DNA of 64,000 nucleotides, taken from the NCBI RefSeq assembly GCF_001580615.1, contig NZ_LHZC01000055.1, positions 1 to 64,000 of the forward strand, given 5' to 3'. Below are positions 3,271-47,239 of this stretch, piece after piece. How positions within the stretch are numbered: position 1 is the first letter of the stretch; each line of letters starts with the position of its first letter. The stretch comes from Acetobacter malorum (lineage in GTDB: Bacteria > Pseudomonadota > Alphaproteobacteria > Acetobacterales > Acetobacteraceae). The notes under the pieces were generated by a model, which was given only the letters and a program-made list of their open reading frames with translations, searched no databases and had not been told where the DNA came from. The translations under genes and the position numbers were made by a program.

Positions 3271-3385
3271 GGTCGGAACATCTCCTGGGCAAGGGAGGTG
3301 AGGAAAGCGAATAAGGGCATTATTCGTTGTATCTTTCATATCATGATCGCAACGAATGGAATTGAGCAATTCCATATTGTTTTTC

Positions 3386-3406: not shown

Positions 3407-3752
3407 GTGTAAGACTAATATAGTATTTCTCTGTGTTTATAAATAATTTATAAATTAAAGTGGGTTTTAAGCCTCTATTTTTATAGAATAGAAAGATCAT
3501 TAAAGATTTTAAATCTTGATTGAGCTAAGAAATTGAAGAAATGAAAGCATGGGATCTACAGTGTCTTAGCCTTATCTGTAAAGATGCCGGTGCAGAACAT
3601 TTTCCAACGTCTACTACAAATTTTACAGAATTTATAACAGGGTTTTGAAGTCTGGTTGTGGAATGACAGTCTGGGAAAAGAAAAATTCTCCACGCCAGGC
3701 CGTAAGCAAAGAGCGGATAAGAGGTCTTTTCAATTTGTTGGGGTGTGTTAAC

Positions 3753-3770
3753 ATTCTGTTGCAACAGAAT
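3753..3770. promoter_or_regulatory. Perfect 18-bp palindrome upstream of the LysR gene
   Basis: ATTCTGTTGCAACAGAAT is an exact palindrome centred about 116 bases before the LysR start codon at 3877. The rest of 3407-3876 is AT-rich and holds no gene I can support. A palindrome here is a natural autoregulatory operator, although its core differs from the TAAC-N5-GTTA sites. Confidence 0.45.
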
Positions 3771-3876: not shown

Positions 3877-4770
3877 ATGCGTTTACGTCAGATCGAAGTT
3901 TTCTATGCGATCATGTCCACGGGCTCTTTGCGCCGTGCTGCCGAGGTGCTGCATGTCTCCCAGCCTGCCGCCAGCAAGGTGCTGCGCTATGCGGAGCAGT
4001 CTTTAGGGTTTGCGCTGTTCGAGCGCACCGGGGGCAGGCTGGTGCCCACGCGGGAAGCACGGATCATGCTGCCGCATGTGAATACGATCTTTGAAAAAAT
4101 TTCTGATCTCAAAAGATTAACGGAAAACCTGCGTTATGCGCGGGATGGGCACGCCATCAGCATCGGCTGTGTGCCCAGTCTGGGGCTAAGCGTGGTGCCA
4201 CGGGTTATCCAGCGCTATCACGCGGCCCATCCGGGAAACGAGCTGACAATCGATACACTGCACGGCCCGGAAATTGTCTCGCGTATTCTCAATCATGACC
4301 TCGATCTGGGGATTGTGTTCGGAACGTATGAAAAGCAGGGGCTTACGGCCAGTCATATTGCCGATGTCCCTTTGGTGCTGATTGATCAGGAGACCGCTAC
4401 AGGCCCGGTCGCGCTGGAAGACATTAATCCGGCCCGCTATATTGGCCTGAGCGAGAATGATCCGACCGCTCGCCTTCTGGATATGGTGTGGGAAGAGGCA
4501 GACCTCTCGACTGTGCCGGTTGTGCGGGTGCGCACACATTATATGGCGGCGGAACTGGTCCGGCTTGGCGGCGGCTGCGCTATTGTAGATGGGCTGACGG
4601 CTTTGCATCATCCGGGGTTGCCTCCGCCGCTTCCGCTCAAGCCTCCTCTCGGCATCGCCTGCACGGTTCTCTTCCGTGCTGATTACGCACTTTCACATAT
4701 TTCCCGTGATATTCTGGAACTCCTTAAAGAAGAAATTCAAAAAGACCTTGCGGGTCTGCCAGCTCTGTAA
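3877..4770 (+). CDS. LysR-family transcriptional regulator
   Basis: A DNA-binding regulator of about 297 residues. The N-terminal winged helix-turn-helix is visible as MRLRQIEVFYAIMSTGSLRR followed by AAEVLHVSQPAASK at residues 20-35. The effector-binding domain follows from about residue 90, with the usual IGCVPSLGLSVVP start and a DLDLGIVFG strand. I chose ATG 3877 because the LysR fold begins immediately there and AGGAAGG precedes it by 13 bases; ATG 3841 in the same frame has no ribosome binding site. It lies between two paralogous TonB receptors, one divergent and one downstream, so it probably controls one or both, and perhaps the hydrolase genes beyond. The LysR subfamily that binds D-octopine or amino acids looks similar, but I cannot name the effector. 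Confidence 0.9.
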   Translation: MRLRQIEVFYAIMSTGSLRRAAEVLHVSQPAASKVLRYAEQSLGFALFERTGGRLVPTREARIMLPHVNTIFEKISDLKRLTENLRYARDGHAISIGCVPSLGLSVVPRVIQRYHAAHPGNELTIDTLHGPEIVSRILNHDLDLGIVFGTYEKQGLTASHIADVPLVLIDQETATGPVALEDINPARYIGLSENDPTARLLDMVWEEADLSTVPVVRVRTHYMAAELVRLGGGCAIVDGLTALHHPGLPPPLPLKPPLGIACTVLFRADYALSHISRDILELLKEEIQKDLAGLPAL

Positions 4771-4787
4771 CAGCGCAGGTGCCCCTT

Positions 4788-4821
4788 AACCATTGGCTAA
4801 TGGTTCATGACATTTTTGACA
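4788..4821 (+). promoter_or_regulatory. Inverted repeat next to a -35 element ahead of receptor 2
   Basis: AACCATT and AATGGTT form a perfect 7-bp inverted repeat around GGCT (4788-4805). A consensus -35 hexamer TTGACA follows at 4816-4821, and no good -10 is seen 17 bases further on. A dyad just upstream of -35 plus a poor -10 is the layout of an activated promoter. The repeat could also be a weak terminator hairpin for the LysR gene. Confidence 0.4.
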
Positions 4822-4894
4822 TAGACAGAGCGCGCTTTTCTTCTGATCATTCCGACATCGTATTAACGTGGTGATCCGGCGGGAAGGAAAGCAG

Positions 4895-7756
4895 ATGATG
4901 CGTCGATCAGGGATTTATAGAAAAAGACTGCTTTTTTTAGGGATTTCCGCTTTCTGCTATGGCTGGACGACTGAGGCCAACGCCCAGATCATTTCCCTGC
5001 CGGGCACAACCACCGGGAAAGCGATTACCAACAAGACATCCAAAAAATCCGATGTGACATCCAAATCCAACGGAAAGGATGAAGCAATCACGGTGGTCGG
5101 CACGCATCTGGGTGCGGTCGAAACAGCTGAAATTCAGCCGGTTACCGTCATCACGAGCGAGCAGATCCAGCAGTCTTCTTCCATGACGACGGGCGATGTG
5201 TTTGCTCACATTCCGTCCATGGGGTTTTCAGGCAACACGTATTCCAATGCTGGAGGCTCCTGTCTGAACATCCGTAGTCTTGGTACAGCCCGTACTCTGG
5301 TGCTGGTTGATGGTCATCGCATGGTCAATGGTAATGGCGCGGTCGATTGCCCGGATGTGAACAGTATTGTTCCCGCCATGATTGACCGTATTGAAATCCT
5401 GAAAGATGGCTCTTCAACCACCTATGGATCGGACGCGATTGCGGGCGTCGTCAATATTATTCTGAAGAAGAATTTCACCGGAACAACCCTGACCGCAAAC
5501 GGCGGTATTAGTGAATATGGGGACGATCAGACGGCCGCGCTCACCGCAGCGCATGGCTTCAACTTCATGCATGACCGGGGCAATTTTACGATTGCCGGGT
5601 CCTATAACTATCAGGCTCCCATGGCCGCAGACCAGCGCAAGTGGGCCATGCAGGAAGCAAAGGTGAATAACCCGCCAGGGCAGGAGCAGTATTATGGGTC
5701 ACAATATGGTGCCCAGCCTGTGTATGCAGCCCTCAACGGCGGTGCGCCGCTAACGCCGTCCAGTGACGGTGTTGCGCAGTCTGTTATTTCCGACGGGCAT
5801 GGTGGTTACAGACCCTATAAATGGAGTGATAATTATGATTACTCCAAAGATAACCAGATTATAGCAGAGCAGCAGGTTGGGTCTCTGGCATCGACAGGCC
5901 ATTTTGACGTCAACAGCAATCTGCAACTCTATATGACGGCGAACTACAGCCACACACATACGGTAAGTGCTGGCACGCCTATGTATATCGCGACACCGGC
6001 CACCACACTGACTGGTAACTCTGGTGCAATGGTTGTGCCCGCCGGTGAACCGGGCAATCCCTTTGGCTCAGACGTCGCACTGAACCAGCGTATGTTCGGG
6101 ATTGGCCGTGAATATGACTATGAAAATATTGACTACTACCAGCTGACAGGCGGTGCACGAGGCACGTTGCCGCACACCGGGGGCTGGACGTATGACTTCT
6201 TCTTCTCTTACGGAAAAACCACGACGTCTGATAAAGGGACGGGGCGCGTCAACTGGCGCAATATGGAAAATGCGCTTGGTTTTCAGCAAACAGGGGGCGC
6301 GGGTTCAACCGAGGGATATTACGACCCCAATCTGTGTGCAAATACGTCTGGTTGCGCGCCGTATAACCCGTTTACAGGCAGCATGTCTCGTGCCGCGGCA
6401 AACTATATAGGGTTTGACGACATTTATCCGTCCGCTCAGGAAATGCGGGATGTTCAGTTTACCGTTGCCAATAAGCATCTGGCCCGTCTGCCGTATGGCC
6501 CTCTGGGGATTGCTCTGGGTGTGGAACATCGGAGTCTGGATGGCTATTGGCATTCTTCCTGGCAGGATAAAGCAGGTTTGAACTCCAACCAGGTTCGGGG
6601 TGATACCGGCGGCGGCTATAACGTGACGGAAGTTTTTGGGGAATTGAGTATTCCGCTGTTGCGGAACCTGCCTGCAGCTAAAGCCCTGAATGCTGAAGTT
6701 TCCGGACGATTTTCGAATTACAACACATTCGGGCAGGCCTATAACTGGCATGCAGGCCTGATTTATGCGCCAACGGACGATATTAAATTCCGGGTCAATA
6801 TCGCAACCGGCTTCCGGGCTCCAACCATTCAGGACCTGTACAAATCAAAAATCATCAGCCTGACAGGCACGCGTGACCCGTGCGCCTATATCTCGACTTA
6901 TCCGGGGGCTGTTCAGGGTGTAATTTCAGACAACTGCCGGGCGCAGGGGATAAACCCGAACACTTTCAAGCAGACAAACGGTTCTCTGAAATATGAAACA
7001 GGCGGAAATGCTAGTTTGAAGCCTGAAATTTCCAGAACCTATACAATTGGTTCCATCCTTACGCCGCGTTTCATTCCGGGCCTCACGGCAACCGTTGACT
7101 ACTTCCATACCCATATCACGGAGACAATCGGCTATCCCTCACTCTCCACAGAGCTGAACGGATGTTATGAAAGCACCGGCCTTTCAAGCAGCTACTGTTC
7201 CATTCTGAATGGCCGTGACGTGAATGGTCAACTCTATCCGGTTGCGCGTTTGCATGAAAATACCGGCGCATTTATCGAAGACGGTCTTGATATCAATGCG
7301 TCCTATCAGGTGCCAATTGACTACAATAACGGCCTCTCTTTCGGTGCCGATATTCAGGATATCATGTCCTATAAATCGCAAAGTCAGGATGGGGAGGCTC
7401 TTATTTCCTATCTGGGTACGGATGCGGGTGTGCCCAAGTGGGTTGCTAATGGGACTGCCACCTTTACGCACGGGCCGTGGAGCTTCACCTACATGGTCCG
7501 GTTTATTGATGGGTTTACCTATTATCCCAGCTCATCTTATGGCCCGACTGTCTCCGAGTGGTGGAAAACTAATCAGGCCTGGTACCATGATGTGATGCTG
7601 ACCTATCACGGAGATATGTATAGTGTGACAGCCGGTGTGAAAAACCTTGCTGGCCGGGACCCGAATTTCTATGCGAACGGGGATTATAATACATCACCGG
7701 GCATGTATGATTATGCAGGCCGCTATATTTATCTGAAAGCACAGGTCCATTTCTAG
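4895..7756 (+). CDS. TonB-dependent outer-membrane receptor (receptor 2)
   Basis: An outer-membrane importer of about 953 residues and a paralog of receptor 1. The signal peptide runs from MMRRSG to about NAQ. A TonB-box-like AITVVG follows, then a plug with LNIRSLG, LVLVDGHR, IEILKDGSS and YGSDAIAGVVNI, with the same two plug cysteines as receptor 1. The barrel ends in YLKAQVHF with terminal Phe. The start was chosen at the ATG pair 4895/4898, preceded by GGGAAGGAAAG; an upstream GTG at 4868 lacks a signal-like N-terminus. It is co-oriented with the LysR gene and followed closely by the hydrolase cluster. The ligand is unknown. Confidence 0.9.
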   Translation: MMRRSGIYRKRLLFLGISAFCYGWTTEANAQIISLPGTTTGKAITNKTSKKSDVTSKSNGKDEAITVVGTHLGAVETAEIQPVTVITSEQIQQSSSMTTGDVFAHIPSMGFSGNTYSNAGGSCLNIRSLGTARTLVLVDGHRMVNGNGAVDCPDVNSIVPAMIDRIEILKDGSSTTYGSDAIAGVVNIILKKNFTGTTLTANGGISEYGDDQTAALTAAHGFNFMHDRGNFTIAGSYNYQAPMAADQRKWAMQEAKVNNPPGQEQYYGSQYGAQPVYAALNGGAPLTPSSDGVAQSVISDGHGGYRPYKWSDNYDYSKDNQIIAEQQVGSLASTGHFDVNSNLQLYMTANYSHTHTVSAGTPMYIATPATTLTGNSGAMVVPAGEPGNPFGSDVALNQRMFGIGREYDYENIDYYQLTGGARGTLPHTGGWTYDFFFSYGKTTTSDKGTGRVNWRNMENALGFQQTGGAGSTEGYYDPNLCANTSGCAPYNPFTGSMSRAAANYIGFDDIYPSAQEMRDVQFTVANKHLARLPYGPLGIALGVEHRSLDGYWHSSWQDKAGLNSNQVRGDTGGGYNVTEVFGELSIPLLRNLPAAKALNAEVSGRFSNYNTFGQAYNWHAGLIYAPTDDIKFRVNIATGFRAPTIQDLYKSKIISLTGTRDPCAYISTYPGAVQGVISDNCRAQGINPNTFKQTNGSLKYETGGNASLKPEISRTYTIGSILTPRFIPGLTATVDYFHTHITETIGYPSLSTELNGCYESTGLSSSYCSILNGRDVNGQLYPVARLHENTGAFIEDGLDINASYQVPIDYNNGLSFGADIQDIMSYKSQSQDGEALISYLGTDAGVPKWVANGTATFTHGPWSFTYMVRFIDGFTYYPSSSYGPTVSEWWKTNQAWYHDVMLTYHGDMYSVTAGVKNLAGRDPNFYANGDYNTSPGMYDYAGRYIYLKAQVHF

Positions 7757-7769
7757 GCTAGATAAGAGG

Positions 7770-7997
7770 GTGGGGGCGGTGCAGACCCCGCCTTCTTCCC
7801 GCATTGTCTCTATTGATATCCTGCGCGGTATCACCGTAGCTTTTATGATTGTTGTCAATAATCCGGGGGATTGGAACAAGGTCTGGTCTCCTCTGGAACA
7901 TGTTGCGTGGAATGTCTGCACGCCTGCGGATCTTGTTTTCCCTTTCTTCCTGTTGCTTTATGGCTTGTACCGTAAAAAAATCTTTCTAAGGCTTTAG
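7770..7997 (+). pseudogene. Truncated NagX-like (DUF5009) membrane protein remnant
   Basis: Only about 75 residues are readable. They match the N-terminus of the heparan-alpha-glucosaminide N-acetyltransferase-like/NagX family: SIDILRG, then MIVVNNPGDW, then TPADLVFPFFL with the first transmembrane helices. Full members have about 350-400 residues and many helices. Here the frame stops after GLYRKKIFLRL and nothing of the remainder is visible before the next gene starts at about 8004. The likely start is GTG 7770 or GTG 7779. NagX-type proteins are linked to amino-sugar uptake across the inner membrane, so the locus may once have handled an amino-sugar-containing ligand. Deletion is the simplest explanation. 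Confidence 0.6.
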
Positions 7998-8003
7998 TTT
8001 TCC

Positions 8004-9650
8004 ATGTTTCATTCACAGGCATTTCCCTCTATGCGACAGCACCACACAAGAATGAAACTGCGTGCAGGCATTACCATGCAGTGCGGCACGCTGGCTGCGC
8101 TGTTGATGGCTTTTAGTGGCACATCAGTTCAGGCAGAAACGCCGTCTCTGCCTGATGGTCTGACAGAGCAGAAGATTGATGATGTTGTTACCAAAGCGCA
8201 GAAGGCTTTTGATGTGCCGGGTATCGCCGTTGGTGTGATCCATGATGGAAAAATCGTTTTTTCTAAAGGCTATGGGCGCCGGGAGGATAATGAAAAAAGC
8301 GGGAAGGTCGATCCCAATACCCTTTTCGCTATTGGCTCCAACAGTAAGGAATTTACGGCCACCGCTCTGGCAACCCTTGTGGATGAGGGGAAGCTGAAAT
8401 GGACCGACCGCGTCATTGATGTCATGCCCGAGTTCAGGGTTTCTGACCCGTGGATTACGCGTGAGTTCCGTGTGAGTGACCTGCTGACCCATCATAGCGG
8501 CATGGGGCTGGGAGCGGGCGATATGATGCTGTTCTCCCATAGCACCTTCACCCGTAAGGATGTTCTGGCGGCACTTCCTTATATGCCGTTTACGGGCCGG
8601 TTCCGGGCGGACTATGCCTATAACAACCTGCTCTATGTGGTGGCCGGAGCACTTGTCGAAAAAATCTCTGGCCAGACATGGGAACATTACGTCCAGACAC
8701 ATCTGATTGATGCGGCAGGCCTGCCGGCTTGCCAGAGCACATTCCCGGTTAAGGGGCAGACGGATGTTGCCGCAGGGCAGGGGAGTGATGGCGTTCTGCC
8801 GGATCGTGCCACGCTGGAACCGGTCGCCGTGGCGCCGGCGGGTGGTGTGTGGTGCAGCGTAAACGGCATGAACCGCTGGGTGCAGACGCTTCTGAACGGT
8901 GGCAAGACCGTGGAGGGGCGGAAAATTATCAGCCTCGCCCAGCGTGATGCCCTTTGGGCACCTTCAGCACTCATTCCGGTGCCTGACAGCGGCAGCAAAA
9001 CGCAAAGTCACTTCCGTGCTTACGGCTATGGCTGGTTTATGGAAGATTTTTACGGTCTGAAACGCGTGTGGCACACAGGGACTATCAGCGGCATGGTCAG
9101 CTATGTCTCCATGCTCCCAGAGAAGAATACCGGGCTGGTCGTCCTCACCAATCATTATGCTAACTCCGCAACCGCTGCCATTGCCGTGACCATGAGTTCC
9201 CTCATAGCTACCGGCAAAAGTGCAGACTGGGTCGCATACTGGCAGGATGAGACTAAAAAGGCGCACGACAAGGCGGAAAAAGAAGCGTCCACCACCGGGC
9301 CGGGGTCACCTGCGCGGCCCTTTATCGCTCTCCCGGTGTCTGATCTGAAAGACTATGTCGGCCTTTATCACGACTCATGGCGCGGCGATATCCGACTCTC
9401 ACTGAAAGGCAAGGATCTGGTCATGACATTTGCGAAGGCCGATGGTCTGGCCGGCACCCTGTCCGCCCTGCCGCATGATCTGTTTGTCGCGAAGTGGCAG
9501 AACCGGGCTGAGGATGCGGAGGACGACAGCTACGTGCAGTTTGAGCGCAATACATCCGGTAAGGTTACGGGTTTCCATATGCAGGTGGTCGGGTCTGATT
9601 TCAGCTTTGATGCGCAAGATCTGCATCCGTTCAAGGTTTCCGATCAATGA
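8004..9650 (+). CDS. Secreted serine hydrolase, beta-lactamase/PBP fold with DUF3471 tail
   Basis: A periplasmic SxxK-family hydrolase (PF00144-type). From the 8004 start, residues to about 44 form a signal peptide ending VQA. The catalytic motifs are SNSK (Ser112, Lys115), YNN (206-208) and HTG (357-359). Residues about 445-548 match the DUF3471 C-terminal domain (LKDYVGLYHDSWRG onward). This family includes D,D-peptidases, D-aminopeptidases and esterases, so the substrate is not decided by motif. The start is uncertain: 8004 has TAAGG upstream, while 8031 and 8052 also give a signal peptide. The stop overlaps the next start (ATGA), so it is translationally coupled to the next serine hydrolase. 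Confidence 0.85.
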   Translation: MFHSQAFPSMRQHHTRMKLRAGITMQCGTLAALLMAFSGTSVQAETPSLPDGLTEQKIDDVVTKAQKAFDVPGIAVGVIHDGKIVFSKGYGRREDNEKSGKVDPNTLFAIGSNSKEFTATALATLVDEGKLKWTDRVIDVMPEFRVSDPWITREFRVSDLLTHHSGMGLGAGDMMLFSHSTFTRKDVLAALPYMPFTGRFRADYAYNNLLYVVAGALVEKISGQTWEHYVQTHLIDAAGLPACQSTFPVKGQTDVAAGQGSDGVLPDRATLEPVAVAPAGGVWCSVNGMNRWVQTLLNGGKTVEGRKIISLAQRDALWAPSALIPVPDSGSKTQSHFRAYGYGWFMEDFYGLKRVWHTGTISGMVSYVSMLPEKNTGLVVLTNHYANSATAAIAVTMSSLIATGKSADWVAYWQDETKKAHDKAEKEASTTGPGSPARPFIALPVSDLKDYVGLYHDSWRGDIRLSLKGKDLVMTFAKADGLAGTLSALPHDLFVAKWQNRAEDAEDDSYVQFERNTSGKVTGFHMQVVGSDFSFDAQDLHPFKVSDQ

Positions 9651-10831
9651 CAGTTCGGTTCCCGGCTTTCTCCCGAAGGGGTTTTTTGCAGGGATCTTCT
9701 CTTTTTCTTGCACAGGCAGGCCTGTCAGCCTGCCAGATGCCGTCGCGTGAGGCTGACAGGTTTGCAAAAGCGGATGCGCTGATACAGCAGGCGATCAGCA
9801 AGGGCGAGTGCCCCGGCGCGGTCTGGGGTGTGGGCCAGCACGGGCGGCTGATCCACCGTGGCGTCTTTGGTGCGCGCAGCCTTGTGTCAACGCAAGAAAC
9901 CATGACGTGGGACACCGTGTTTGATATGGCCTCCCTCACCAAACCAATGATCACCGCGTTGGCTGTCATGCAGCTTGTGGAAAAAGGTCTGGTGGATGTG
10001 GAGGCTCCCGTAGCCCGTTACCTTCCGCAATTTGCTGCGGCTGGGAAAGCGCAGATTACAGTGCGGCTGCTGCTCACGCATTTTTCCGGCCTGCAGCCCG
10101 ATCTGCCTCGCACGCCGGACTGGTGGGGGAAAGCCGCCGCCACGGACCGTATCATGCAGGCTGTTCCCAAAATCCCGCCGGGCAGAGGCTTTATTTACAG
10201 TGATCTCAATTTTATCACTCTCGGGCTTCTGGTTGAAAAACTGACAGGGCAGACACTGGATGTGTATGCGCAGAACGCTATCCTTACCCCGCTGGGCATG
10301 ACGCAATCAGGCTTTCTGCCGCCCCCAGCCCAACAGGCGCGTATTGCCCCCACGCAGTATGATGAACACGGCACGATGTTGCGCGGTGTGGTGCATGACC
10401 CCACGGCGCGCCGCATGAACGGCGTTGCGGGGAATGCGGGTCTGTTTTCTACGGCGGAAGATATGGCCCGTTACGCGCAGGCCTTGCTGGACAAACGGGC
10501 CGGGCGATCCAGCGTATTTCCTCTCAGTCGCGCGACGCTGTTGACCATGACAACACCCCAGCAGCCGGCAGGCCAGAAGAGCCTGCGTGGTTTTGGGTGG
10601 GATATTGCGTCTCCCTATGCCTCCCCCAGAGGAGAGCGGCTATCCCATCATTCCTTCGGTCATACCGGGTTTACAGGCACGTCGCTGTGGATTGATCCTG
10701 ATAATGATTGCTATGTTTTTATTCTGACCAACCGTGTCCATCCCAATGGAGGGCACAGTGTGGTGCATCTACGGCATGACGTGGCAACGGCAGTCGGGGA
10801 GGCTCTGGGGCTGCCGTTAGCTGTGCCGTAA
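9647..10831 (+). CDS. Tat-exported lipoprotein serine hydrolase (beta-lactamase/PBP fold)
   Basis: A second SxxK hydrolase, 394 residues. The N-terminus has a Tat motif SRRGFLQ (residues 9-15) followed by a lipobox LSAC with Cys29, so it is probably exported folded and lipid-anchored. Catalytic motifs are SLTK (Ser96, Lys99), YSD (184-186, replacing the usual YxN; Asn188 is close by) and HTG (339-341). It overlaps the preceding gene by four bases. The family covers esterases (EstB-like), D-aminopeptidases and D,D-carboxypeptidases. In this context I favour an amide or peptide substrate, but an esterase remains possible. Confidence 0.85.
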   Translation: MTVRFPAFSRRGFLQGSSLFLAQAGLSACQMPSREADRFAKADALIQQAISKGECPGAVWGVGQHGRLIHRGVFGARSLVSTQETMTWDTVFDMASLTKPMITALAVMQLVEKGLVDVEAPVARYLPQFAAAGKAQITVRLLLTHFSGLQPDLPRTPDWWGKAAATDRIMQAVPKIPPGRGFIYSDLNFITLGLLVEKLTGQTLDVYAQNAILTPLGMTQSGFLPPPAQQARIAPTQYDEHGTMLRGVVHDPTARRMNGVAGNAGLFSTAEDMARYAQALLDKRAGRSSVFPLSRATLLTMTTPQQPAGQKSLRGFGWDIASPYASPRGERLSHHSFGHTGFTGTSLWIDPDNDCYVFILTNRVHPNGGHSVVHLRHDVATAVGEALGLPLAVP

Positions 10832-10853
10832 GCAAAAGTGCTCTTTCGCAGGG

Positions 10854-10868
10854 TTAACCTCAGGTTAA
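10854..10868. promoter_or_regulatory. LysR-type box upstream of the DadA-like gene
   Basis: TTAACCTCAGGTTAA is a perfect inverted repeat with the core TAAC-N5-GTTA, matching the site ahead of receptor 1. The centre is 128 bases from the chosen DadA-like start at 10989. Further down, GGGATCT (10901-10907) and AGATCCC (10930-10936) could form a 5' leader hairpin. Regulation by the LysR protein encoded at 3877 is inferred. Confidence 0.45.
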
Positions 10869-10988
10869 GGGTGGCGGGCATTTTTTAAATGGCATGCAGG
10901 GGGATCTGTTTTTAGATTTTCTACTGAGAAGATCCCGGAACATGGCATGCGCATGTTTGAGCGGGCTCGTCATGATCATAAGGGGTCG

Positions 10989-12206
10989 ATGGTTCTTATG
11001 CCTGCAAAGCGGACAATCACGGTAGTGGGTGGAGGCGTTATTGGCCTGACAACCGCATATGCGCTCATCCAGGCCGGACACAGTGTGACGCTGGTGGAGC
11101 GCGAGGATCAGGTTGGTGAACAGGCCAGTTTTGGCAATGGCGGCCAGCTGAGCTACCGCTATGTGCGGCCGTTGGCGGATGCCGGGATTCCGCTGGAAGC
11201 GCTCTCATGGATGCTTCAGGCCGACTCTCCCATTTCCCTCCGGCTCCGGCTGGACTGGCAGCAGTGGCGGTGGCTGGCAGATTTTCTGCTGGCCTGTAAT
11301 GCCAGAACCAACAAGGCCAACGCAGCCCGGCTGTTAAAGCTCGCTTTGCTGGGGCAACAGGCTCTCAATCAGTGGCGGCAGGACGGGCTGGAAAATTTTT
11401 TGTGGCGCAAACCCGGTAAGCTGGTTGTGTATCGGAACGCGCAGAAATTTTCCAAAGCCGCCAAAGCTGTCAGTAACCCACAACAGGAACAGGTTCTGAC
11501 CCCGGCGGAATGTGCGCAGGTAGAACCTGCTTTTGCAGGTCTTGCACCCACACTGGCAGGCGGTATTTTCTCTCCTGATGATGAAGTGGCAGATTGCTAT
11601 CTGTTCTGTCAGGCTCTTCTTAAATCCCTCAAACAGAGCAAAGATTTTCAGATTGTAAAAGGCGATGTCGTTCTGGAGGAAGATCTGGATGCGCGGTGCC
11701 GGGTGCGGATCAACGGGGCAGAGTGGCAGACGGACATTGTGGTTCTGGCAGCCGGACTCGCCTCCCGCGCGTTGATGCAGCCACTGGGCCAAAGACTGCC
11801 TCTCTACGGGCTGAAGGGATACAGCCTGACGGTGGAGGCAGATCCGGCCGTGCTGCCTGATGTGAGCGTCACGGATTATGACAACCGCGTTGTGTACGCC
11901 CGTCTGGGCGATCGGCTCCGTATTGCCGCCATGGTTGATATTGGTGCGCTGAATGCCTCGCCTGATCCGCGCCGCATCGCCTCGCTGAAACATCTGGCGG
12001 AGGAAACACTTCCGGCCGCCGGGCCTTACGCGTCCGCCACCACCTGGGCGGGGATGCGGCCCGCCACGCCCACCGGGGTACCTTTGGTGCAGCGGACGCA
12101 ATGGCGTAACCTGCTGCTCAATGTTGGCCATGGGGCTTTGGGGTTCACGCTTTCCTGCGGCTCCGCCCTGACCATTCGGGACCTTGTTGAAGAGATGCAG
12201 CCGTAA
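10989..12206 (+). CDS. FAD-dependent D-amino-acid dehydrogenase (DadA-like)
   Basis: A flavoprotein of about 405 residues in the DAO/DadA family. It would oxidise D-amino acids such as D-alanine to 2-oxo acids and ammonia, passing electrons to the respiratory chain. The N-terminal Rossmann motif VVGGGVIGLTTAYAL is followed by an acidic strand end (VERE). The segment ASFGNGGQLSYRY aligns with the DadA flavin-contact region, and GHGALGFTLSCGSA near the end is the typical C-terminal FAD-binding stretch. The start at ATG 10989 follows AAGGGG; ATG 10998 is also possible and an upstream in-frame ATG at 10947 adds a non-family tail. The next gene starts one base after its stop. A D-amino-acid oxidising step beside four SxxK hydrolases points to D-amino-acid-containing substrates. 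Confidence 0.85.
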   Translation: MVLMPAKRTITVVGGGVIGLTTAYALIQAGHSVTLVEREDQVGEQASFGNGGQLSYRYVRPLADAGIPLEALSWMLQADSPISLRLRLDWQQWRWLADFLLACNARTNKANAARLLKLALLGQQALNQWRQDGLENFLWRKPGKLVVYRNAQKFSKAAKAVSNPQQEQVLTPAECAQVEPAFAGLAPTLAGGIFSPDDEVADCYLFCQALLKSLKQSKDFQIVKGDVVLEEDLDARCRVRINGAEWQTDIVVLAAGLASRALMQPLGQRLPLYGLKGYSLTVEADPAVLPDVSVTDYDNRVVYARLGDRLRIAAMVDIGALNASPDPRRIASLKHLAEETLPAAGPYASATTWAGMRPATPTGVPLVQRTQWRNLLLNVGHGALGFTLSCGSALTIRDLVEEMQP

Positions 12207-12207
12207 A

Positions 12208-14652
12208 ATGAGACACTCCTCCTTTCTCACCCGTCGTCACGTTCTGCTGGGGGGTGTTGCTGCCGGTTTGGCTGGACTGACCACTTACCGCGCTCTGGCC
12301 CGGCAGGGGGGCGCTTCCAGCCTGATGGGGCTGGAGGGGCTGAATGCACCGGTCGAGGTGCTGGAGGATCAGTGGGGCGTGCCGCATGTGCGGGCCGCTT
12401 CCGTGCCGGATGCGTTTTTTGCAAACGGCTACCTGATTGCTCGGGACAGGCTGTGGCAGCTCGATTTTGAGTATCGTCGGGCCCTGGGCAGATTGGCGGA
12501 AGTTTATGGGCCTGATTGCGTGCCGTCTGACACGGCAAGCAGGCTTTTCTTGTTCCGGGGTGATGCACAGGCAGAGTTTGCAGCGCTGCCGCCCGCAGTG
12601 CAGGCCTGCGCCCGCGCCTATGTGGCGGGTATTAACGCCTATCTTGCCCGCATCAACACGGGTGAAGAAAAACTCCCTGCAGAATTCAATATTTTTTCAT
12701 ATCATCCGCTTGAATGGGATGTTCTGGATCTGGTGCGCATCCGGGCAGAAGCAACAGGGAACACCAAAGCCGAAATCCGCCACGCACAATTGGCGGCGCA
12801 GGACGCGCTGGCCTATGACGCGCTGATCCAGCCTCTGCGCCCCGCCCATACACTCAGGGTGCCGGATGGGCTGGATGTGCATGCTGTCACAGAGCAGGAT
12901 CTGGGCCTTTTTGGTGTTTTGCAGGATGGCCCCTCTCTTGCCGGCCTGCATGCAGTGCCTTCCCCCAATGAGGGCGACCACCGACGCGCCAATGAGGGTA
13001 GTAACGCATGGGTCATTGCACCCACGCGCACGGCCACCGGTCGCCCCATTCTGGCCAATGACCCGCATCTCAGTTTTGGCTCACCCGGCCCGCGTCATGT
13101 CATCCATCTGACAGCGCCGGGGCTGGATGTAATTGGCGGTGGGGCACCGGGTACGCCGGGCATCATGCAGGGCCATAACGCGCATTTTGCTTTTGGGCGC
13201 ACCAATTTTCATATCGATCAGGAAGACCTGTTTATCCTGCGCACGCATCCCGACCATCCTGACCGCTATTTTCACAATGGGCGCTGGGTGGAGATGGAGC
13301 ATGAGGAAATCTCCATTGCTGTGCGTGGAGGCCCCGCGCAAAGTGTTACCCTGCGCTATGCGGCACAGGGGCCGGTTGTCTCTGCCGATCCTGCACGGAA
13401 CAGGGCTGTGGCAGTTTCCGCCACATGGCTCTATCCGGGCGCGAATGGCATGCTGGCTAATATCGGCATCAATCTTGCCAGTGACTGGGATAGTTTCCGT
13501 CAAGCCCTGAAACTCCATACCAGTCCAACAAATTTCACATACGCCGATACAGCGGGGAATATTGGCTGGCAGGCTGCGGGCGGTCTGCCGGAACGCCGCA
13601 ACGGCTATGATGGCCTGCTGCCCGCGCCGGGTGATGGGCGGTATGACTGGAAGGGCCTCCAGTCGCTGGATGCGCTTCCCAACAGCTTCAATCCCGCCCG
13701 TGGCTGGTTTGGTACCTCCAACGAGCTCAATCTGCCAGCGGACTACCCGTATGAGGAACGCTGCGTCAGCTACGAATGGAAAGACCCTTACCGTTACCAG
13801 CGTGTTGCAGAAGTCCTTCAGGTCTCTCCTCATGCCACAGTAGCGGATAGCGTGGCCTTGCAGCATGATACGCTCTCTCATCTGGCCTTGTCCGTGGTGC
13901 AACTGCTGCCGGAAGTGCCTGCGCCCATGCAGGCAGAAGCCGCGTTGCTGCGCCAATGGAATGGGCGCGTAGAAGCGACAAGTGTTGCCGCGGCGTTGTA
14001 TGAGGTGTGGTGGACTCGCCTGAATACCCTGTTCTATCAGGCCTTGGTGCCGGAAAACCTGCGTTCTCTTCTGCCACAACCGCTTAACGCGTCTGTTCTT
14101 CTGGCATTCCTGCAAAAGCCCGATAGCCGATTGGGCGCCACGCCGGAGACACAGCGTGATGCTCTCCTTGTCAAAGCGTTTCAGCAGGCGGTGGAAGAGT
14201 TGCGCGACCGTCTGGGACCGGTGGCTGCTGCATGGCAGTGGGGCACCCTGCATACCGTTCAGCTTCGTCATCCGCTCCATGGTGTGAAAGCTGTAGCAGA
14301 AGCGTTTCAGCCCATAGGGGGTGAAACGGCCCGGAGTGGGGGAGACCCGTACACAGTCATGGCGCGCTGGTATAATCCGGATTTGTCAGAAAAAGCGCTT
14401 GCGCAGGGCCGTAACCCATATGCTGTAACAGGCGGGGCAAGTTATCTGATGGTGTGTGACGTCGGGGCGTGGGACAACTCGCTGTTCCTTAACTTCCCCG
14501 GTCAGTCTGCCTTGCCGGACAGCGGGCATTATGCGGATGTCCTGCAACTCTGGCTCAAGGGCGCTATGCAGCCCCTTCCGTTTTCTGCAAAAGCCGTTCA
14601 GGCCGCAGCCAGACACCACGCTGTCCTGTATCCAAAAGGAAAAACGCTATGA
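12208..14652 (+). CDS. Penicillin-acylase-family Ntn hydrolase, Tat-exported
   Basis: A periplasmic amidase of the penicillin G acylase/AHL acylase superfamily, 814 residues. It would be made as a precursor that cleaves itself into alpha and beta chains. The N-terminus carries a Tat-type signal (LTRRHVLLGG). The alpha chain has the QWGVPHVRA and ANGYLIARDRLWQLDFEYRR blocks. The self-cleavage point is Gly-Ser in ANEGSNAWVIAP, with the nucleophilic Ser265 (codon at 13000), followed by the NDPHLSF block. Natural substrates in this family include N-acyl homoserine lactones, penicillins and acylated amino acids. The start was taken at 12208, one base after the dadA-like stop. It overlaps the next gene by four bases (ATGA). 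Confidence 0.9.
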   Translation: MRHSSFLTRRHVLLGGVAAGLAGLTTYRALARQGGASSLMGLEGLNAPVEVLEDQWGVPHVRAASVPDAFFANGYLIARDRLWQLDFEYRRALGRLAEVYGPDCVPSDTASRLFLFRGDAQAEFAALPPAVQACARAYVAGINAYLARINTGEEKLPAEFNIFSYHPLEWDVLDLVRIRAEATGNTKAEIRHAQLAAQDALAYDALIQPLRPAHTLRVPDGLDVHAVTEQDLGLFGVLQDGPSLAGLHAVPSPNEGDHRRANEGSNAWVIAPTRTATGRPILANDPHLSFGSPGPRHVIHLTAPGLDVIGGGAPGTPGIMQGHNAHFAFGRTNFHIDQEDLFILRTHPDHPDRYFHNGRWVEMEHEEISIAVRGGPAQSVTLRYAAQGPVVSADPARNRAVAVSATWLYPGANGMLANIGINLASDWDSFRQALKLHTSPTNFTYADTAGNIGWQAAGGLPERRNGYDGLLPAPGDGRYDWKGLQSLDALPNSFNPARGWFGTSNELNLPADYPYEERCVSYEWKDPYRYQRVAEVLQVSPHATVADSVALQHDTLSHLALSVVQLLPEVPAPMQAEAALLRQWNGRVEATSVAAALYEVWWTRLNTLFYQALVPENLRSLLPQPLNASVLLAFLQKPDSRLGATPETQRDALLVKAFQQAVEELRDRLGPVAAAWQWGTLHTVQLRHPLHGVKAVAEAFQPIGGETARSGGDPYTVMARWYNPDLSEKALAQGRNPYAVTGGASYLMVCDVGAWDNSLFLNFPGQSALPDSGHYADVLQLWLKGAMQPLPFSAKAVQAAARHHAVLYPKGKTL

Positions 14653-15908
14653 AATTTAAAGTCTGTTCCGCTCTGGCTCTGGCGTTTTTCAGCACAACCG
14701 CTTTGGCGCAAACCGCGACCGATAAAAAGATGGATGCCGTGTTAACGCACGGTGAAAGCCAGCCTCTGGCGGCACTCGCTGCCGTCAAGCTGGAACATGG
14801 CCAGCCTGTTTACCAGTATTATGGTGGGTTTGCGCGGCGTGATGGCGCTCAAACTGTTCCGGTTAAGCAAGAAACCCTCTTCCGTATTGCGTCCATTTCC
14901 AAGGTAGTGACTACTATCGGGCTGATGGAACTGGTCGAGCAGGGCAAGATTAATCTCGATCATGATGTCTCGGAGTATCTCGGTTTTCCGCTGCGCAATC
15001 CGGATTTTCCCACTACCCCCATCACCGTGCGGATGCTTTTAAACCATACCTCCACCATTCGGGATGGCGATGTGTATGTTCTGCCGCCCGGTAAGTCAGT
15101 GCGTGATTTCTTTGATGAAAGTCATAAACCCGGAAGCCAGGACTATCATTTCTCTTTTCATGATGGCCACGCGCCGGGAACATATTTTACCTATTGCAAC
15201 CTGTGCTACGGGCTGGTTGGCACCATCATCGAGCGGGTCAGCGGGGAGCGGTTTGACCGTTATCAGAGACAGCATGTTCTGGAACCGCTGAAAATAGACG
15301 GGGGCTATAACGTTGCGGAGCTGGAGCATCCGGAGCGTCTTGCCACACTTTATCAGCATGTACCCTCTGGGTATGAAGCCGCAGTTGATAGCCAGCCTCT
15401 TAAAGGCTGGAGCAAAGAGGATTTAGAATCCTACAAAATTGGCAGCAATGGCAGCGTGTTTTCTCCACAGGGTGGCCTGCGTATTTCTCTGCAGGGGCTC
15501 ACTCGTCTGGCGCAATTTATGATCCAGCGCGGCACGCTTGATGGTGTCAGGCTTCTGGCTCCGCAAAGCATTGAGGCGATGGAAACACCTACATGGACAT
15601 TTAATGGCAAGAATGGCGAGTGTCCGTACCCACTAAGCGCCTATGGCCTGAGCCTGTTTACGCTGACAGGCACAAAAGACACCAACGGAAAACCTGCCAT
15701 CCCCTATGTCGGGTATCAGGGCGGCCTGCGTGGTCATCTGGGTGATGCGTACGGACTGCATTCTGGCTTCTGGTATAATCCGCAAAACGGAGAGGCCTAT
15801 CTGTTTGCGGCGGATGGGTATCCTGATTATGAGCAGGAGAAGCCCGGACAGTATTCTTCTTTCTCCAGAGTAGAAGAAGAAATTTTCACAACTCTGGCGG
15901 GGAAATAA
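14649..15908 (+). CDS. Secreted serine hydrolase (beta-lactamase/PBP fold)
   Basis: A third SxxK hydrolase, 419 residues, with a clean Sec signal peptide (MKFKVCSALALAFFSTTALA, cut before Gln21). Catalytic motifs are SISK (Ser82, Lys85), YCN (182-184) and HSG (371-373) in place of HTG. A ribosome binding site AAAAGGA lies inside the end of the acylase gene, which it overlaps by four bases. Its own stop overlaps the following S9 peptidase start by one base. This tight packing shows the acylase, this hydrolase and the peptidase are one transcriptional unit. The substrate is unknown; D-peptide, amide or ester are all possible. Confidence 0.85.
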   Translation: MKFKVCSALALAFFSTTALAQTATDKKMDAVLTHGESQPLAALAAVKLEHGQPVYQYYGGFARRDGAQTVPVKQETLFRIASISKVVTTIGLMELVEQGKINLDHDVSEYLGFPLRNPDFPTTPITVRMLLNHTSTIRDGDVYVLPPGKSVRDFFDESHKPGSQDYHFSFHDGHAPGTYFTYCNLCYGLVGTIIERVSGERFDRYQRQHVLEPLKIDGGYNVAELEHPERLATLYQHVPSGYEAAVDSQPLKGWSKEDLESYKIGSNGSVFSPQGGLRISLQGLTRLAQFMIQRGTLDGVRLLAPQSIEAMETPTWTFNGKNGECPYPLSAYGLSLFTLTGTKDTNGKPAIPYVGYQGGLRGHLGDAYGLHSGFWYNPQNGEAYLFAADGYPDYEQEKPGQYSSFSRVEEEIFTTLAGK

Positions 15909-17986
15909 TGATGATGATCCGTTCTGCCTTCGCAGCAGCTCTCCTTGCTGGTGGTTTATACTCCGTCTCTCCGGCAAATGCTGCGCCGCTTGATGAGGTG
16001 GGAGCCCGGCATCAGATCACGGCACTTCTGTCCATGCCGTTCGCCACAAATCTGGTTGGGGCCAGCAACGCGAACCGGTTTGCATGGGTGGAAAAGCGCA
16101 GTGGCGTGCGGAATATTCTGGCAGCGGACGTGTCAGGAACACCGAAAGCTCTGACGCATTTCACGCAGGATGACGGCACCAATTTATGGGGTGTGACTCT
16201 CTCCCCCAACGGTAAGACGCTGGCTTATGTGGAAGGAGGAGACCCGGAATTTCCGGACGCCTCTTCTCCTAACCCGAACCTTTCAGAAACAGGAACGCAT
16301 CAGAGCGTGAATGTGGTTCTGGAAAGCGGCAAACAGATGCGCATGGGGGAAGGCTGGAACTCCACATTCTCTCCAGATGGCGCGACGCTGGCGTTCTCGC
16401 ACAAAGGCTCCCTGTTTCTGGCTCCCGTTGGTAAAGTGGCGAAAGAGGTCATGAGCGTGCCGGGGAGCCTTACGTCCTTGCAATGGGCACCGGATGGCTC
16501 GGCGCTGGCCTTTACGCTGGACCGTGGCAGTCATGCGCTCATTGGATTATGGCACGTCAAAACGGCGACCATGACATTTCTTGCTCCCGCACTGGGGCAG
16601 GATAGTCTGCCAACATTTTCTCCGGATGGCCGTTTTGTCGCGTTTGTGCGGGAGCATAGGCCGCTTACTGATAAGAAGACCGAAAAAGGCTCTTTCTGGT
16701 CGCTGCATGTTTATGATCTGGCCAGTAATACAGACCATGTTGTGTGGACACCGCCTGCCGGGACGGGTGCACGGTTTGCTGTGCCGGAGGGGAGCAGCCT
16801 TCTGTGGTCTGATAACGCCCATCTGCTCTTCCCGTGGGAAGGAAGCGGATGGATGCGGGTTTGTGCTGTGGCGGCATCGGGCACAGGAATCCCGTCCTGT
16901 CTGACGCCAGATAAGGCGGAAGTCTCATCCTATCGGTTGTCACAGGACAGAAAGACGCTTTTTTACACAAGCAATGTCGGGAATGTGGATGCCTGGCACG
17001 CATGGCGGCTGGCTCTGGACGGCTCTTCTCCCCAGCGTTTGACCCACAGTGAAGATATGGAAACAGACCTTGCTGTGGCCGGAGCAAAGGTGGGCGTCAT
17101 CGCCGCCAGTGTCACACAGACAGCGCATCCGGCGGTGGTCGGGCCGGATGGTGCAAGCGCGCCGCTTGTTTCTCCGCAAGCACCGTCAGATGTGCATTTC
17201 GTGACCCCGCAAGTGGTTGTGTTCCACAGCGCTGATGGCGTTGAAGTGCATGGACAGCTTTTTGTGCCGGAGGGAGAGGCTAAAACACCGCGCGCTGCCT
17301 TGGTGTTTGTGCATGGTGGGCCGCATCGCCAGACGCTCCCTGCCTTTAATGGCATGGACTATTATTCCAATGCCTATGCCATGAACCAGACCTTGGCGGC
17401 GCAGGGCTATGTTGTGTTGTCCGTCAATTATCGGAGCGGGACAGGCTATGGCGAGGCGTTTCGGAATGCGCCTGAAACGGGCGGACACGGAGCCAGTGAA
17501 TATCGGGATGTCTTTGCTGCTGCCACCTATCTCAGGGCCCGAGCGGATATTGATCCCGCGCGGATCGGCATCTGGGGCGGAAGCTGGGGCGGCTATCTGA
17601 CGGCACTCGCTCTGGCCCGTAATAGTGATGTCTTTGCGGCAGGCGCGGATTTTCATGGCGTGCATGATATGATCGACCCCGACACATATGGCCTTTCCCC
17701 TGAGGAGAACAGGAAAGCGCATGAAGTGGAATGGCAGTCCTCCCCTGCGGCAGATATTGCTCACTGGCATGCTCCGGTTCTTCTAGTGCATGGTGATGAT
17801 GATTATAACGTCGAATTTGAGCAATCGACCCTTCTGGCAAAACTGTTGTCAGAGCAGGGCGTGCTGTATGAGGAACATTCTTTTCCCAATGAACGGCATA
17901 CTTTTTTGCGCATGCAGGATTGGCTGACGGCCTATATGTGGATGGATACGTTCTTTGCCCATACACTGACGTCTCATAAGCCCTGA
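15908..17986 (+). CDS. Secreted S9 (prolyl oligopeptidase) family peptidase
   Basis: A serine peptidase of 692 residues with an N-terminal signal peptide ending about ANA. Residues 40-400 look like the beta-propeller with WD40-like PD40 repeats (SPNGKTLAYVEG, SPDGATLAFSH, APDGSALAFTLD, SPDGRFVAFVRE). The C-terminal alpha/beta hydrolase domain has GGSWGGY with the nucleophile Ser559, HGDDDYNV with the likely catalytic Asp, and NERHTF with His664. The family includes dipeptidyl peptidases and acylaminoacyl peptidases that trim small peptides. The start overlaps the previous stop (TAATG); the alternative second and third Met lie within six bases. It is the last tightly linked gene of the 10989-17986 unit. 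Confidence 0.9.
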   Translation: MMMIRSAFAAALLAGGLYSVSPANAAPLDEVGARHQITALLSMPFATNLVGASNANRFAWVEKRSGVRNILAADVSGTPKALTHFTQDDGTNLWGVTLSPNGKTLAYVEGGDPEFPDASSPNPNLSETGTHQSVNVVLESGKQMRMGEGWNSTFSPDGATLAFSHKGSLFLAPVGKVAKEVMSVPGSLTSLQWAPDGSALAFTLDRGSHALIGLWHVKTATMTFLAPALGQDSLPTFSPDGRFVAFVREHRPLTDKKTEKGSFWSLHVYDLASNTDHVVWTPPAGTGARFAVPEGSSLLWSDNAHLLFPWEGSGWMRVCAVAASGTGIPSCLTPDKAEVSSYRLSQDRKTLFYTSNVGNVDAWHAWRLALDGSSPQRLTHSEDMETDLAVAGAKVGVIAASVTQTAHPAVVGPDGASAPLVSPQAPSDVHFVTPQVVVFHSADGVEVHGQLFVPEGEAKTPRAALVFVHGGPHRQTLPAFNGMDYYSNAYAMNQTLAAQGYVVLSVNYRSGTGYGEAFRNAPETGGHGASEYRDVFAAATYLRARADIDPARIGIWGGSWGGYLTALALARNSDVFAAGADFHGVHDMIDPDTYGLSPEENRKAHEVEWQSSPAADIAHWHAPVLLVHGDDDYNVEFEQSTLLAKLLSEQGVLYEEHSFPNERHTFLRMQDWLTAYMWMDTFFAHTLTSHKP

Positions 17987-18062
17987 CCAGCAAGGGCATC
18001 GTCTTAAAAACGCTTATAGGGCGTACGCTGTGGTGTATGATAGATCAAGGAGGGAAAAGCTG

Positions 18063-18977
18063 ATGAAGATGCTGAAAATTTCCACTGTTCTGGCAAAAAC
18101 CTTTTTAGCCGGAGCACTCCTGATGCCTCATCTGGCCAGCGCGGCGCCTTCCGCCGGGTCAAACCCCCTGGCGCAGATCATGGCAAAAACGGTCAGCAAG
18201 CAGCCGGGGCATTTTGCTGTTTATGCGGCACGTAGTGGTCAGGCGCCGGATGTGTGCCTGAACTGCGATGATCTGATTAATGCAGCCAGCACCATGAAGC
18301 TGTTCGTGCTGGATACAGCCTATGAGGCCTTTACAAAAGGCACCTTGCATCCAGAAGATACCATTGTTGTTCACAACCATTTTCATTCTTTGGTGGGAAA
18401 GGGGAGCTTTGCGCTTGAGCAGAAAGAGGATTCTTATGACCCTCTCTACGCGCAGGCAGGCAAGCCGGTGCCTGTTTCAGAACTTCTGCGCGTGATGATC
18501 CAGTATAGCAGCAATCTGGCGACCAACCTGATGATTGAAAAGCTTGGGGTGCTCCCAATACGCTCCGTCGTGAAAGCGCAGGGCCTCATTGGCATCGTCT
18601 TCGGGCGGATGATTGAGGACTTTGATGCGAATGATCAGGGAATTCGTAATCAGGTTTCAGCACGTGGGTTAGGGGATTTTTTGCAAAAGCTGGATAGCGG
18701 GAAGATTGTGGGTAAGGCGCAAAGCCAGAGCATGATCCAGATTATGCTGGGGCAGAAATTTAATGACATTATTCCCCCCGGCCTGCCCGCCAGCACACCC
18801 GTGGCCCATAAGACCGGCTGGGTCGATGGCGTGCGGAATGATGCCGCCATTGTCACCCTGCCTGATGGCAAACGCTATATTCTGGTGGTGCTGACATCCG
18901 GTTTGCCGGACGAACAGGCCGGGATCAGGGTGCTGAATACGCTTTCTCATCAGGCGTATGAATATTTTTTAAAATAG
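18063..18977 (+). CDS. Secreted class-A-beta-lactamase-fold serine hydrolase
   Basis: A fourth SxxK hydrolase, 304 residues, from a different branch (Beta-lactamase2/class A fold). The signal peptide ends LASAA. Motifs are STMK (Ser76, Lys79), SSN (149-151) at the SDN position and HKTG (249-252). The omega-loop ExxLN motif with the general-base Glu of true class A beta-lactamases is not visible; the matching stretch reads GRMIEDFDANDQGIRN. It is therefore more likely a D,D-peptidase-like or other amidohydrolase than a resistance enzyme. The start has a very strong ribosome binding site (AAGGAGGG, 9 bases). It is 76 bases after the S9 peptidase and may share its transcript. Confidence 0.85.
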   Translation: MKMLKISTVLAKTFLAGALLMPHLASAAPSAGSNPLAQIMAKTVSKQPGHFAVYAARSGQAPDVCLNCDDLINAASTMKLFVLDTAYEAFTKGTLHPEDTIVVHNHFHSLVGKGSFALEQKEDSYDPLYAQAGKPVPVSELLRVMIQYSSNLATNLMIEKLGVLPIRSVVKAQGLIGIVFGRMIEDFDANDQGIRNQVSARGLGDFLQKLDSGKIVGKAQSQSMIQIMLGQKFNDIIPPGLPASTPVAHKTGWVDGVRNDAAIVTLPDGKRYILVVLTSGLPDEQAGIRVLNTLSHQAYEYFLK

Positions 18978-21565: not shown

Positions 21566-21589
21566 AATCATTTCTTCGCGTTCTGCTTT

Positions 21590-24509: not shown

Positions 24510-24520
24510 CGTACGTGTCC

Positions 24521-47234: not shown

Positions 47235-47239
47235 GCGGG

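Follow-up and report, generated by a model that had tools for sequence, protein, structure and literature searches.

A conserved gene island of Acetobacter malorum and other acetic acid bacteria as the probable peptide-degrading arm of a peptidoglycan scavenging system

Two known loci are cousins of the gene island described here, which lies at positions 3877-18977 of a 64,000-nucleotide stretch of DNA of Acetobacter malorum (contig NZ_LHZC01000055.1; the whole stretch is called the window below). Passages of PMC5061867 describe the murQ operon of Escherichia coli (murQ-murP-pbp4B, where pbp4B is yfeW), which includes PBP4B, and the murQRP-amiE-nagZ-ybbC set of Bacillus subtilis, where AmiE and NagZ, encoded with MurQ, degrade muropeptides extracellularly. 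A further comparison is offered by the N-acetylglucosamine (GlcNAc; nag) loci of Gram-negative bacteria that include a TonB receptor. We take the product of B. subtilis ybbC to be NamZ, and AmiE is an amidase of the Amidase_2 class. Among the open-licence papers listed in literature searches, none dealt with acetic acid bacteria as scavengers of peptidoglycan. The island genes form a conserved module that recurs beyond chance and, given the observed protein families, conservation, linkage, and co-occurrence, they probably make up the part of a peptidoglycan (muropeptide) scavenging system that degrades the peptides. An earlier note on this DNA had proposed the scavenging of D-amino-acid-containing peptides, N-acylated peptides, or muropeptides. 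Muropeptides are now favored, as several lineages have MurQ, NamZ, Nag, GH20, or PBP4 genes in among those of the module and as NamZ and the acylase tend to occur in the same genomes; the accompanying remark that no described pathway has this exact set is tempered by the E. coli and B. subtilis cousins.

The gene content was confirmed by open reading frame (ORF) calls, translations, and profile scans against Pfam and NCBIfam. The features of the island and of its upstream edge are:

376-3375, minus strand: TonB-dependent receptor P0001, paralogue of P0003, outside the island span (PF07715 and PF00593)
3732-3755, plus strand: conserved block upstream of the LysR gene, candidate LysR-type binding site (alignment of upstream regions)
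3877-4770, plus strand: LysR-type regulator P0002 (PF00126 and PF03466; the ORF as called starts at 3745)
4868-7756, plus strand: TonB-dependent receptor P0003 (PF07715 and PF00593)
7845-7964, plus strand: remnant of a NagX/DUF5009-like membrane gene (tblastn, 40 of 369 residues, 85% identity)
8004-9650, plus strand: exported S12 hydrolase S12a (P0004), with DUF3471 and the motif SNSK (PF00144 and PF11954)
9647-10831, plus strand: S12 hydrolase S12b (P0005), motif SLTK (PF00144)
10947-12206, plus strand: D-amino-acid dehydrogenase DadA (P0006; NF001933)
12208-14652, plus strand: amidohydrolase P0007 of the N-terminal nucleophile (Ntn) type (S45, penicillin amidase), with a twin-arginine (Tat) type signal and nucleophile Ser273 (PF01804)
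14649-15908, plus strand: exported S12 hydrolase S12c (P0008), motif SISK (PF00144)
15908-17986, plus strand: exported S9 prolyl-oligopeptidase-family peptidase P0009 (PF00326, 130.3 bits)
18030-18977, plus strand: exported class-A-beta-lactamase-fold protein P0010, motifs STMK, SSN, and KTG (PF13354, 146.9 bits)

The LysR regulator, the four exported SxxK hydrolases, DadA, the penicillin-amidase-family enzyme, and the S9 peptidase of the earlier note are all borne out by these scans, the four SxxK proteins being three S12 enzymes of beta-lactamase fold (P0004, P0005, and P0008) and the class-A-like P0010. The gene overlaps, given there as 1 to 4 bases, measure 4, 4, and 1 bases; a single base lies between DadA and the acylase, counted from the first ATG of the latter. 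Two paralogous receptors had been placed within the island: the paralogy of P0001 and P0003 holds (35% identity over 978 aa), but P0003 alone lies there, P0001 being on the opposite strand beyond its edge. The NagX-like remnant has longer matches at the same place in related Acetobacter loci (L034, L036, L037, and L039), and the L039 protein scores 23.1 bits for DUF5009, just under the Pfam cut-off of 25.

A scan of named genomes for the acylase P0007 gave 47 loci, 34 of them from acetic acid bacteria labelled Acetobacter, Novacetimonas, Gluconobacter, Gluconacetobacter, Asaia, or Brytella (six genera). Genes were counted within the DNA available for each locus, with 10 kb flanks where present. 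DadA accompanies the acylase in 32 of the 34 loci, where it lies upstream, S9 in 27, LysR in 26, S12a and S12c in 24 each, the class-A-like gene in 16, and S12b in 12. The order of the genes varies. The set recurs in loci of these six genera, and the outcome in which these genes are not conserved together did not arise in this gene-order comparison. Among the loci compared, the nearest is that of A. cerevisiae LMG 1625, with 94-100% protein identity for the genes compared. Across 299 genomes of the family, orthologues of P0007 (at least 59% identity) are present in 16, representing seven genera and three of the eight sampled genomes of the window's genus. A DadA of the module type (at least 51% identity) is found in all 16 acylase-positive genomes and in none of eight same-genus negatives, while other DadA genes, at 30-37% identity, are general. 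Around the more distant acylase homologues (14 loci, L018-L031; eight Massilia/Telluria loci, L064-L071; and L073, L074, L076-L078), no module gene was found in the DNA available, which for many loci amounts to about 5 kb; the exceptions are L024, where a DppA-type gene matches at 24%, and L076, where DadA is matched at 26%.

Genes for peptidoglycan amino sugars stand next to the module in several lineages. In A. cibinongensis (L038), genes for an SSS symporter, MurQ, NagB, and GH20 are divergent from LysR, and NagA, an NagP-like MFS transporter, and a BcrAD-type kinase-like gene lie past S9. The MurQ of this locus scores 353.7 bits with NF003915 (cut-off 168), NagB 272.3 (cut-off 236.9), NagA 241.7 (cut-off 225.65), and the NagP-like transporter 239.5, below its cut-off of 625. 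Five Gluconobacter loci have a receptor, PBP4, and NamZ after S9; in the one that was checked (L044), PBP4 scores 204.5 bits (cut-off 107.8) and NamZ has both Pfam domains. Both Asaia loci carry a receptor and PBP4, A. farinalis (L124) has NamZ divergent from LysR, and in Brytella matches to GH20, NagB, and NagP lie upstream of the module. NamZ is found in 6 of the 34 loci (the five of Gluconobacter and that of A. farinalis) and PBP4 in 7; 8 loci have NamZ or a MurQ/Nag/GH20 gene, a count that rises to 14 when PBP4, SSS, and NagX-like genes are included. By a simple length ratio, the chance of a single-copy gene landing in such a stretch is about 0.7%. Homologues of module genes also occur beside sugar genes elsewhere. 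In a Gluconacetobacter locus (L129, genome G174), those of DadA (57%), S12c (57%), S12b (58%), and P0001 (77%, partial at the end of the locus) are found beside NagK-like, NamZ, SSS, MurQ, and NagB genes, and P0001 probably belongs to the island system. In L130 (genome G142), an S12b homologue (61%) adjoins MurQ; its best model is PBP4B, at 137.5 bits for a cut-off of 385.

The association extends to whole genomes. NamZ, counted at 51% identity or more, is present in 11 of the 16 acylase-positive genomes and in none of the 283 others (Fisher p 1.2e-16, a value that ignores phylogeny, as do all our Fisher values on co-occurrence), and three further genomes have NamZ at 41-42% without an acylase orthologue. 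In the window's own genus the counts are 3 of 3 positives against 0 of 5 negatives, and in genus g42 they are 2 of 3 against 0 of 3, a difference that does not reach significance by itself. The window genome (G000) carries on its contig 12 a GH20 gene, NagB, an NagP-like gene, a receptor, an Mlc/NagC-like regulator, an N-acetylglucosamine-kinase-like ROK kinase, a CutC-like gene, an SSS symporter, NamZ, and MurQ. The last two are adjacent and MurQ scores 356.7 bits with NF003915 (cut-off 168); the Mlc/NagC-like, ROK kinase, and CutC-like genes are below their model cut-offs. Its NagA is on contig 13, so that MurQ, NamZ, and NagA occur in the same genome. Hence, the sugar side of wall degradation and the peptide side formed by the island are found together in one genome, with MurQ outside the island there and inside it in A. 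cibinongensis.

These observations place the island relative to the known systems. It resembles the E. coli N-acetylmuramic acid (MurNAc) divergon in that PBP4B is the best model of S12b and that a homologue of S12b adjoins MurQ in L130. However, the E. coli operon lacks a receptor, DadA, an Ntn amidase, and S9, its regulator is MurR rather than a LysR, and the MurQ of the window genome is off the island. The B. subtilis set differs by its amidase AmiE, as the 16 acylase-positive genomes have no Amidase_2. The companion locus on contig 12, with its receptor and its NagP-like, NagB, GlcNAc-kinase-like, and Mlc/NagC-like genes, is similar to the nag loci of Gram-negative bacteria, whereas the island would process peptides and D-amino acids, not sugars.

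From the gene content we infer the cargo of the receptors, the order of cleavage, the bond cut by the Ntn enzyme, the outside origin of the peptidoglycan, and a wall fragment, for example diaminopimelate, as the inducer. A TonB-dependent receptor would import muropeptides or cell-wall peptides to the periplasm, where the four SxxK serine hydrolases would trim DD bonds and bonds with D-residues and the S9 peptidase would cleave the stem at further bonds. Next, the D-succinylase-like Ntn amidohydrolase would cut N-acyl- or peptidyl-D-amino acid bonds, freeing D-Ala and possibly D-Glu. The D-amino acids would reach the cytoplasm to be oxidized by DadA, with the electrons passed to respiration, and the amino sugars would be handled by the separate set of NamZ, GH20, NagP-like, SSS, kinase, MurQ, NagA, and NagB genes elsewhere in the genome. 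In fruit, ferments, and insect guts, acetic acid bacteria live alongside lactic acid bacteria, which have abundant D-amino acids in their walls. If correct, this proposal would account for a hitherto unassigned set of lactamase-fold, acylase, and DadA genes, which annotation pipelines would probably label beta-lactamase and penicillin acylase. It would also assign a role to the D-succinylase branch of Ntn acylases, and would bear on the amount of wall fragments that reach the peptidoglycan sensors of hosts.

The assignment of P0007 to the S45 penicillin amidase family is clear (623.8 bits with PF01804, above the cut-off), and the nucleophile motif GSN(A/S)W is invariant in the 35 aligned acylase sequences. 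Its N-terminus is of the twin-arginine type, as judged by eye. The closest solved relative is a D-succinylase (510.4 bits), followed by penicillin G acylase (197.9 bits), so that by sequence proximity P0007 is closest to a D-succinylase-like enzyme. The homology with the Cupriavidus D-succinylase (7ea4 and 7eby; S45) is near full-length, and P0007 differs from it by its DadA and peptidase surroundings and its Tat-like signal. According to passages of PMC7431475, D-succinylase hydrolyses N-succinyl-amino acids with a preference for the D form, the L-isomer being also accepted, and its selectivity is imperfect. A PvdQ-type acylase of N-acyl-homoserine lactones was considered and rejected, with 73.6 bits for a cut-off of 950 (NF051460) and nothing that favors these lactones. 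DadA itself scores 386.1 bits with NF001933 (cut-off 383), which makes it a member of that family, and no signal peptide was seen on it. Given the kinship with D-succinylase and the presence of DadA upstream in nearly all loci, the simplest inference is that P0007 releases a free D-amino acid.

A more ambitious proposal, which we put forward as a tentative one and think somewhat less probable than its contrary, is that P0007 serves as a dedicated stem-peptide amidase in a complete extracellular peptidoglycan-utilisation system. It would either supply D-amino acids to DadA or even take over the task of an AmiE-type amidase and detach the stem from MurNAc. Some relatives would also oxidize D-amino acids in the periplasm, by means of an exported, circularly permuted D-amino-acid oxidase that is accompanied in part of them by a small cytochrome c. 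We know of no link between Ntn hydrolases of the penicillin-acylase fold and the cell wall. No MurNAc-L-Ala amidase of a known class is found within the island cluster. Amidase_2 is also lacking in some acylase-negative acetic acid relatives (for example, G117); of 150 genomes of the family, 100 carry it. A single Amidase_3 was counted in each of 24 genomes, and in the window genome it is on contig 10, away from the island. Because these negatives share the lack of Amidase_2 and every one of the 24 genomes has Amidase_3, the lack is at most permissive for P0007 as a wall amidase, and we dropped the argument from a missing amidase. Since the D-selectivity of D-succinylase is ill-suited to the cleavage of MurNAc-L-Ala, the release of D-amino acids is the preferred role.

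The oxidase in question is a protein similar to D-amino-acid oxidase (DAAO). Its gene, with a Tat-type N-terminus, is present in 12 of the 34 loci, 7 of which also have a small c-type cytochrome, and in 18 of the 299 genomes, some of them without an acylase orthologue; it was not found in the window genome. We list three of the ORFs, to which eight more are to be added:

L052, 4037-5386, plus strand: DAAO-like ORF
L053, 14023-15201, minus strand: DAAO-like ORF
L044, 4498-5904, minus strand: DAAO-like ORF

In all 11 ORFs, the DAAO signature HNYGHGGSGWSLSWG, normally C-terminal, precedes the Rossmann (FAD-binding) motif. The matches to solved DAAOs are permuted as well, with query residues 99-150 aligned to 325-376 of the chain of one oxidase and residues 151-226 to 6-81 of another, and positions 1-288 of the Pfam DAO profile fall on residues 153-432. 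At the level of sequence, the protein looks like a natural circular permutant. The AlphaFold model of the protein has a mean pLDDT (per-residue confidence) of 41.7, too low for a check of the fold; that of the receptor P0003, with 50.4, is likewise of low confidence. Among the open-licence papers listed in a literature search, none was, judging by its title, on a circularly permuted DAAO.

The best NCBIfam models of the remaining SxxK hydrolases of the S12 family are class C beta-lactamase (86.8 bits, cut-off 415) and then AmpH (74.7, cut-off 266) for S12a, PBP4B (NF002968, 141.6, cut-off 385) for S12b, and AmpH (NF007943, 64.8, cut-off 266) for S12c, all below their cut-offs. By eye, S12b has a Tat-like SRRGFLQ and a lipobox-like LSAC at its N-terminus. 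The top solved relatives of S12c are two esterases and an alkaline D-peptidase. P0010 falls short of the class A beta-lactamase model NF033103 (85.5 bits, cut-off 200), and its nearest solved relative is TLL2115 (65.7 bits, the next distinct protein having 43.7), which we take to be the PBP-A of Thermosynechococcus. P0010 shares with it the SxxK, SxN, and KTG motifs and differs by a conserved RMIED segment in the omega-loop region, kept in 16 of 16 sequences, where it is ambiguous which residue occupies the position of the class A catalytic Glu. The PBP-A of T. elongatus is presented in passages of PMC11189452 as a DD-carboxy/endopeptidase that prefers amidated muropeptides. The S9 peptidase P0009 has a signal-like N-terminus (by eye) and dipeptidyl (amino)peptidases IV as top solved relatives; a lasso-peptide isopeptidase was discarded for it (NF033523, 82.7 bits, cut-off 400).

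Concerning the regulation, the start of LysR at the ATG in 3877 is matched in 27 of the 29 entries compared, two of which are second views of one genome. The best of the 50 NCBIfam models matched by P0002 is NF008239 (129.9 bits, below the cut-off of 288), the model of the E. coli LysR, which itself scores 590.7 bits. The inducer of E. coli LysR is diaminopimelate, and as P0002 scores below the cut-off, we treat this link as a hint. The block at 3732-3755 is present in six of seven aligned Acetobacter upstream regions (it is absent in L058) and has one match in the window against none in 100 shuffles. In A. cibinongensis the block is located between LysR and the SSS-MurQ genes that diverge from it, and in A. 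farinalis between LysR and NamZ. Searching the whole window genome returned its own copy and one site with three mismatches on contig 23.

Several observations weigh against a peptidoglycan scavenging system. Within the DNA available, 20 of the 34 loci have no peptidoglycan marker gene, and NamZ is lacking in 5 of the 16 acylase-positive genomes. MurQ is present in all 16 but also in 113 of the 283 other genomes, and being so common without the acylase it is not diagnostic alone; furthermore, the MurQ-like proteins pass two NCBIfam models and fail TIGR00274 (274.2 bits in L038 and 275.6 in the window genome, cut-off 302). G218 has its module-type DadA on a contig other than that of the acylase. 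The types of receptor vary among species. The S12 and class-A-like proteins are under the cut-off of every NCBIfam model shown, and carboxylesterases are among the solved proteins nearest to S12b and S12c, so that esters may be substrates of these two. The activity of D-succinylase is known for N-succinyl-D-amino acids rather than peptidoglycan. Finally, a LysR box shared by the island and the NamZ-MurQ operon had to be abandoned, as the block was not found at that operon in the window genome.

Of the other explanations, the one that survives best, although we regard it as unlikely, is the remodelling or recycling of the cell's own wall, with the enzymes trimming an unusual peptidoglycan (1-3 cross-links, amidation) and the receptors recapturing shed fragments. 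The peptidoglycan of Acetobacteraceae is described in passages of PMC10864386 and PMC10727944 as 1-3 cross-linked, amidated, and dependent on growth phase, and the preference for amidated muropeptides reported for PBP-A (PMC11189452), taken as the nearest solved relative of P0010, would suit this function. However, the patchy distribution of the module (the acylase is in 16 of 299 genomes and 3 of 8 in its own genus) is unlike housekeeping, Amidase_3 is present in 24 of 24 genomes, and NamZ, GH20, the NagP-like transporters, and the receptors appear catabolic.

It is less likely still that the island serves the use of N-acyl-D-amino acids, the Ntn enzyme deacylating them and DadA oxidizing the product, with an incidental linkage to peptidoglycan genes. 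Plants produce N-malonyl-D-amino acid conjugates, and malonyl-D-tryptophan is reportedly named in the food and plant metabolomics literature. The proximity of the acylase to a D-succinylase that prefers the D form of N-succinyl-amino acids (in the passages of PMC7431475 cited above) and the placing of DadA before it in 32 of 34 loci are what one would expect, but the four SxxK hydrolases, S9, the receptor, PBP4, and the linkage with NamZ and MurQ would be left unexplained. We give even less credit to the import and dismantling of the D-residue-containing non-ribosomal (lipo)peptides of competitors, as food or defence. D-stereospecific peptidases occur among S12 enzymes (an alkaline D-peptidase is one of the solved relatives, and a D-amino acid amidase another), acyl chains are removed by some S45 enzymes, and an ABC transporter similar to SbmA/BacA, a family that carries peptides, is found beside DadA in three loci; nonetheless, wherever the neighbours scanned had a recognisable linked catabolic theme, it was that of cell-wall amino sugars. 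The three loci are L040, L042, and L072, from G. entanii and two Novacetimonas species; there the transporter, together with a siderophore-type receptor, lies between the class-A-like gene and DadA. Beta-lactam catabolism or resistance, suggested by the fold families alone (Beta-lactamase, Beta-lactamase2, and Penicil_amidase), is rejected as highly implausible, since the lactamase models are far below their cut-offs (at best 85.5 of 200 for class A in P0010 and 86.8 of 415 for class C in P0004), P0010 is nearest to TLL2115, which we take to be a DD-peptidase, and no phenylacetate gene family is found among the 20 neighbour proteins scanned.

Further along the window, a third receptor, P0011 (19175-21565), has no significant BLAST match to P0001 or P0003. 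P0011, a gene for a Tat-type phospholipase C/phosphoesterase (19175-23638, plus strand, for the two), and an encapsulin gene come after the island in A. cerevisiae, A. malorum, and A. persici but in no other species compared, and we therefore left all three outside the module; the first two are probably a separate pair. The encapsulin (Linocin_M18) is at 23715-25546 on the minus strand, with a Dyp-type peroxidase gene directly upstream, and looks like an encapsulated peroxidase pair. Finally, positions 43305-50137 (minus strand) encode an apparent assimilatory nitrate reductase, a molybdopterin protein fused to flavodoxin/FAD/NAD domains, beside a Rieske-domain nitrite reductase, both assigned by Pfam.

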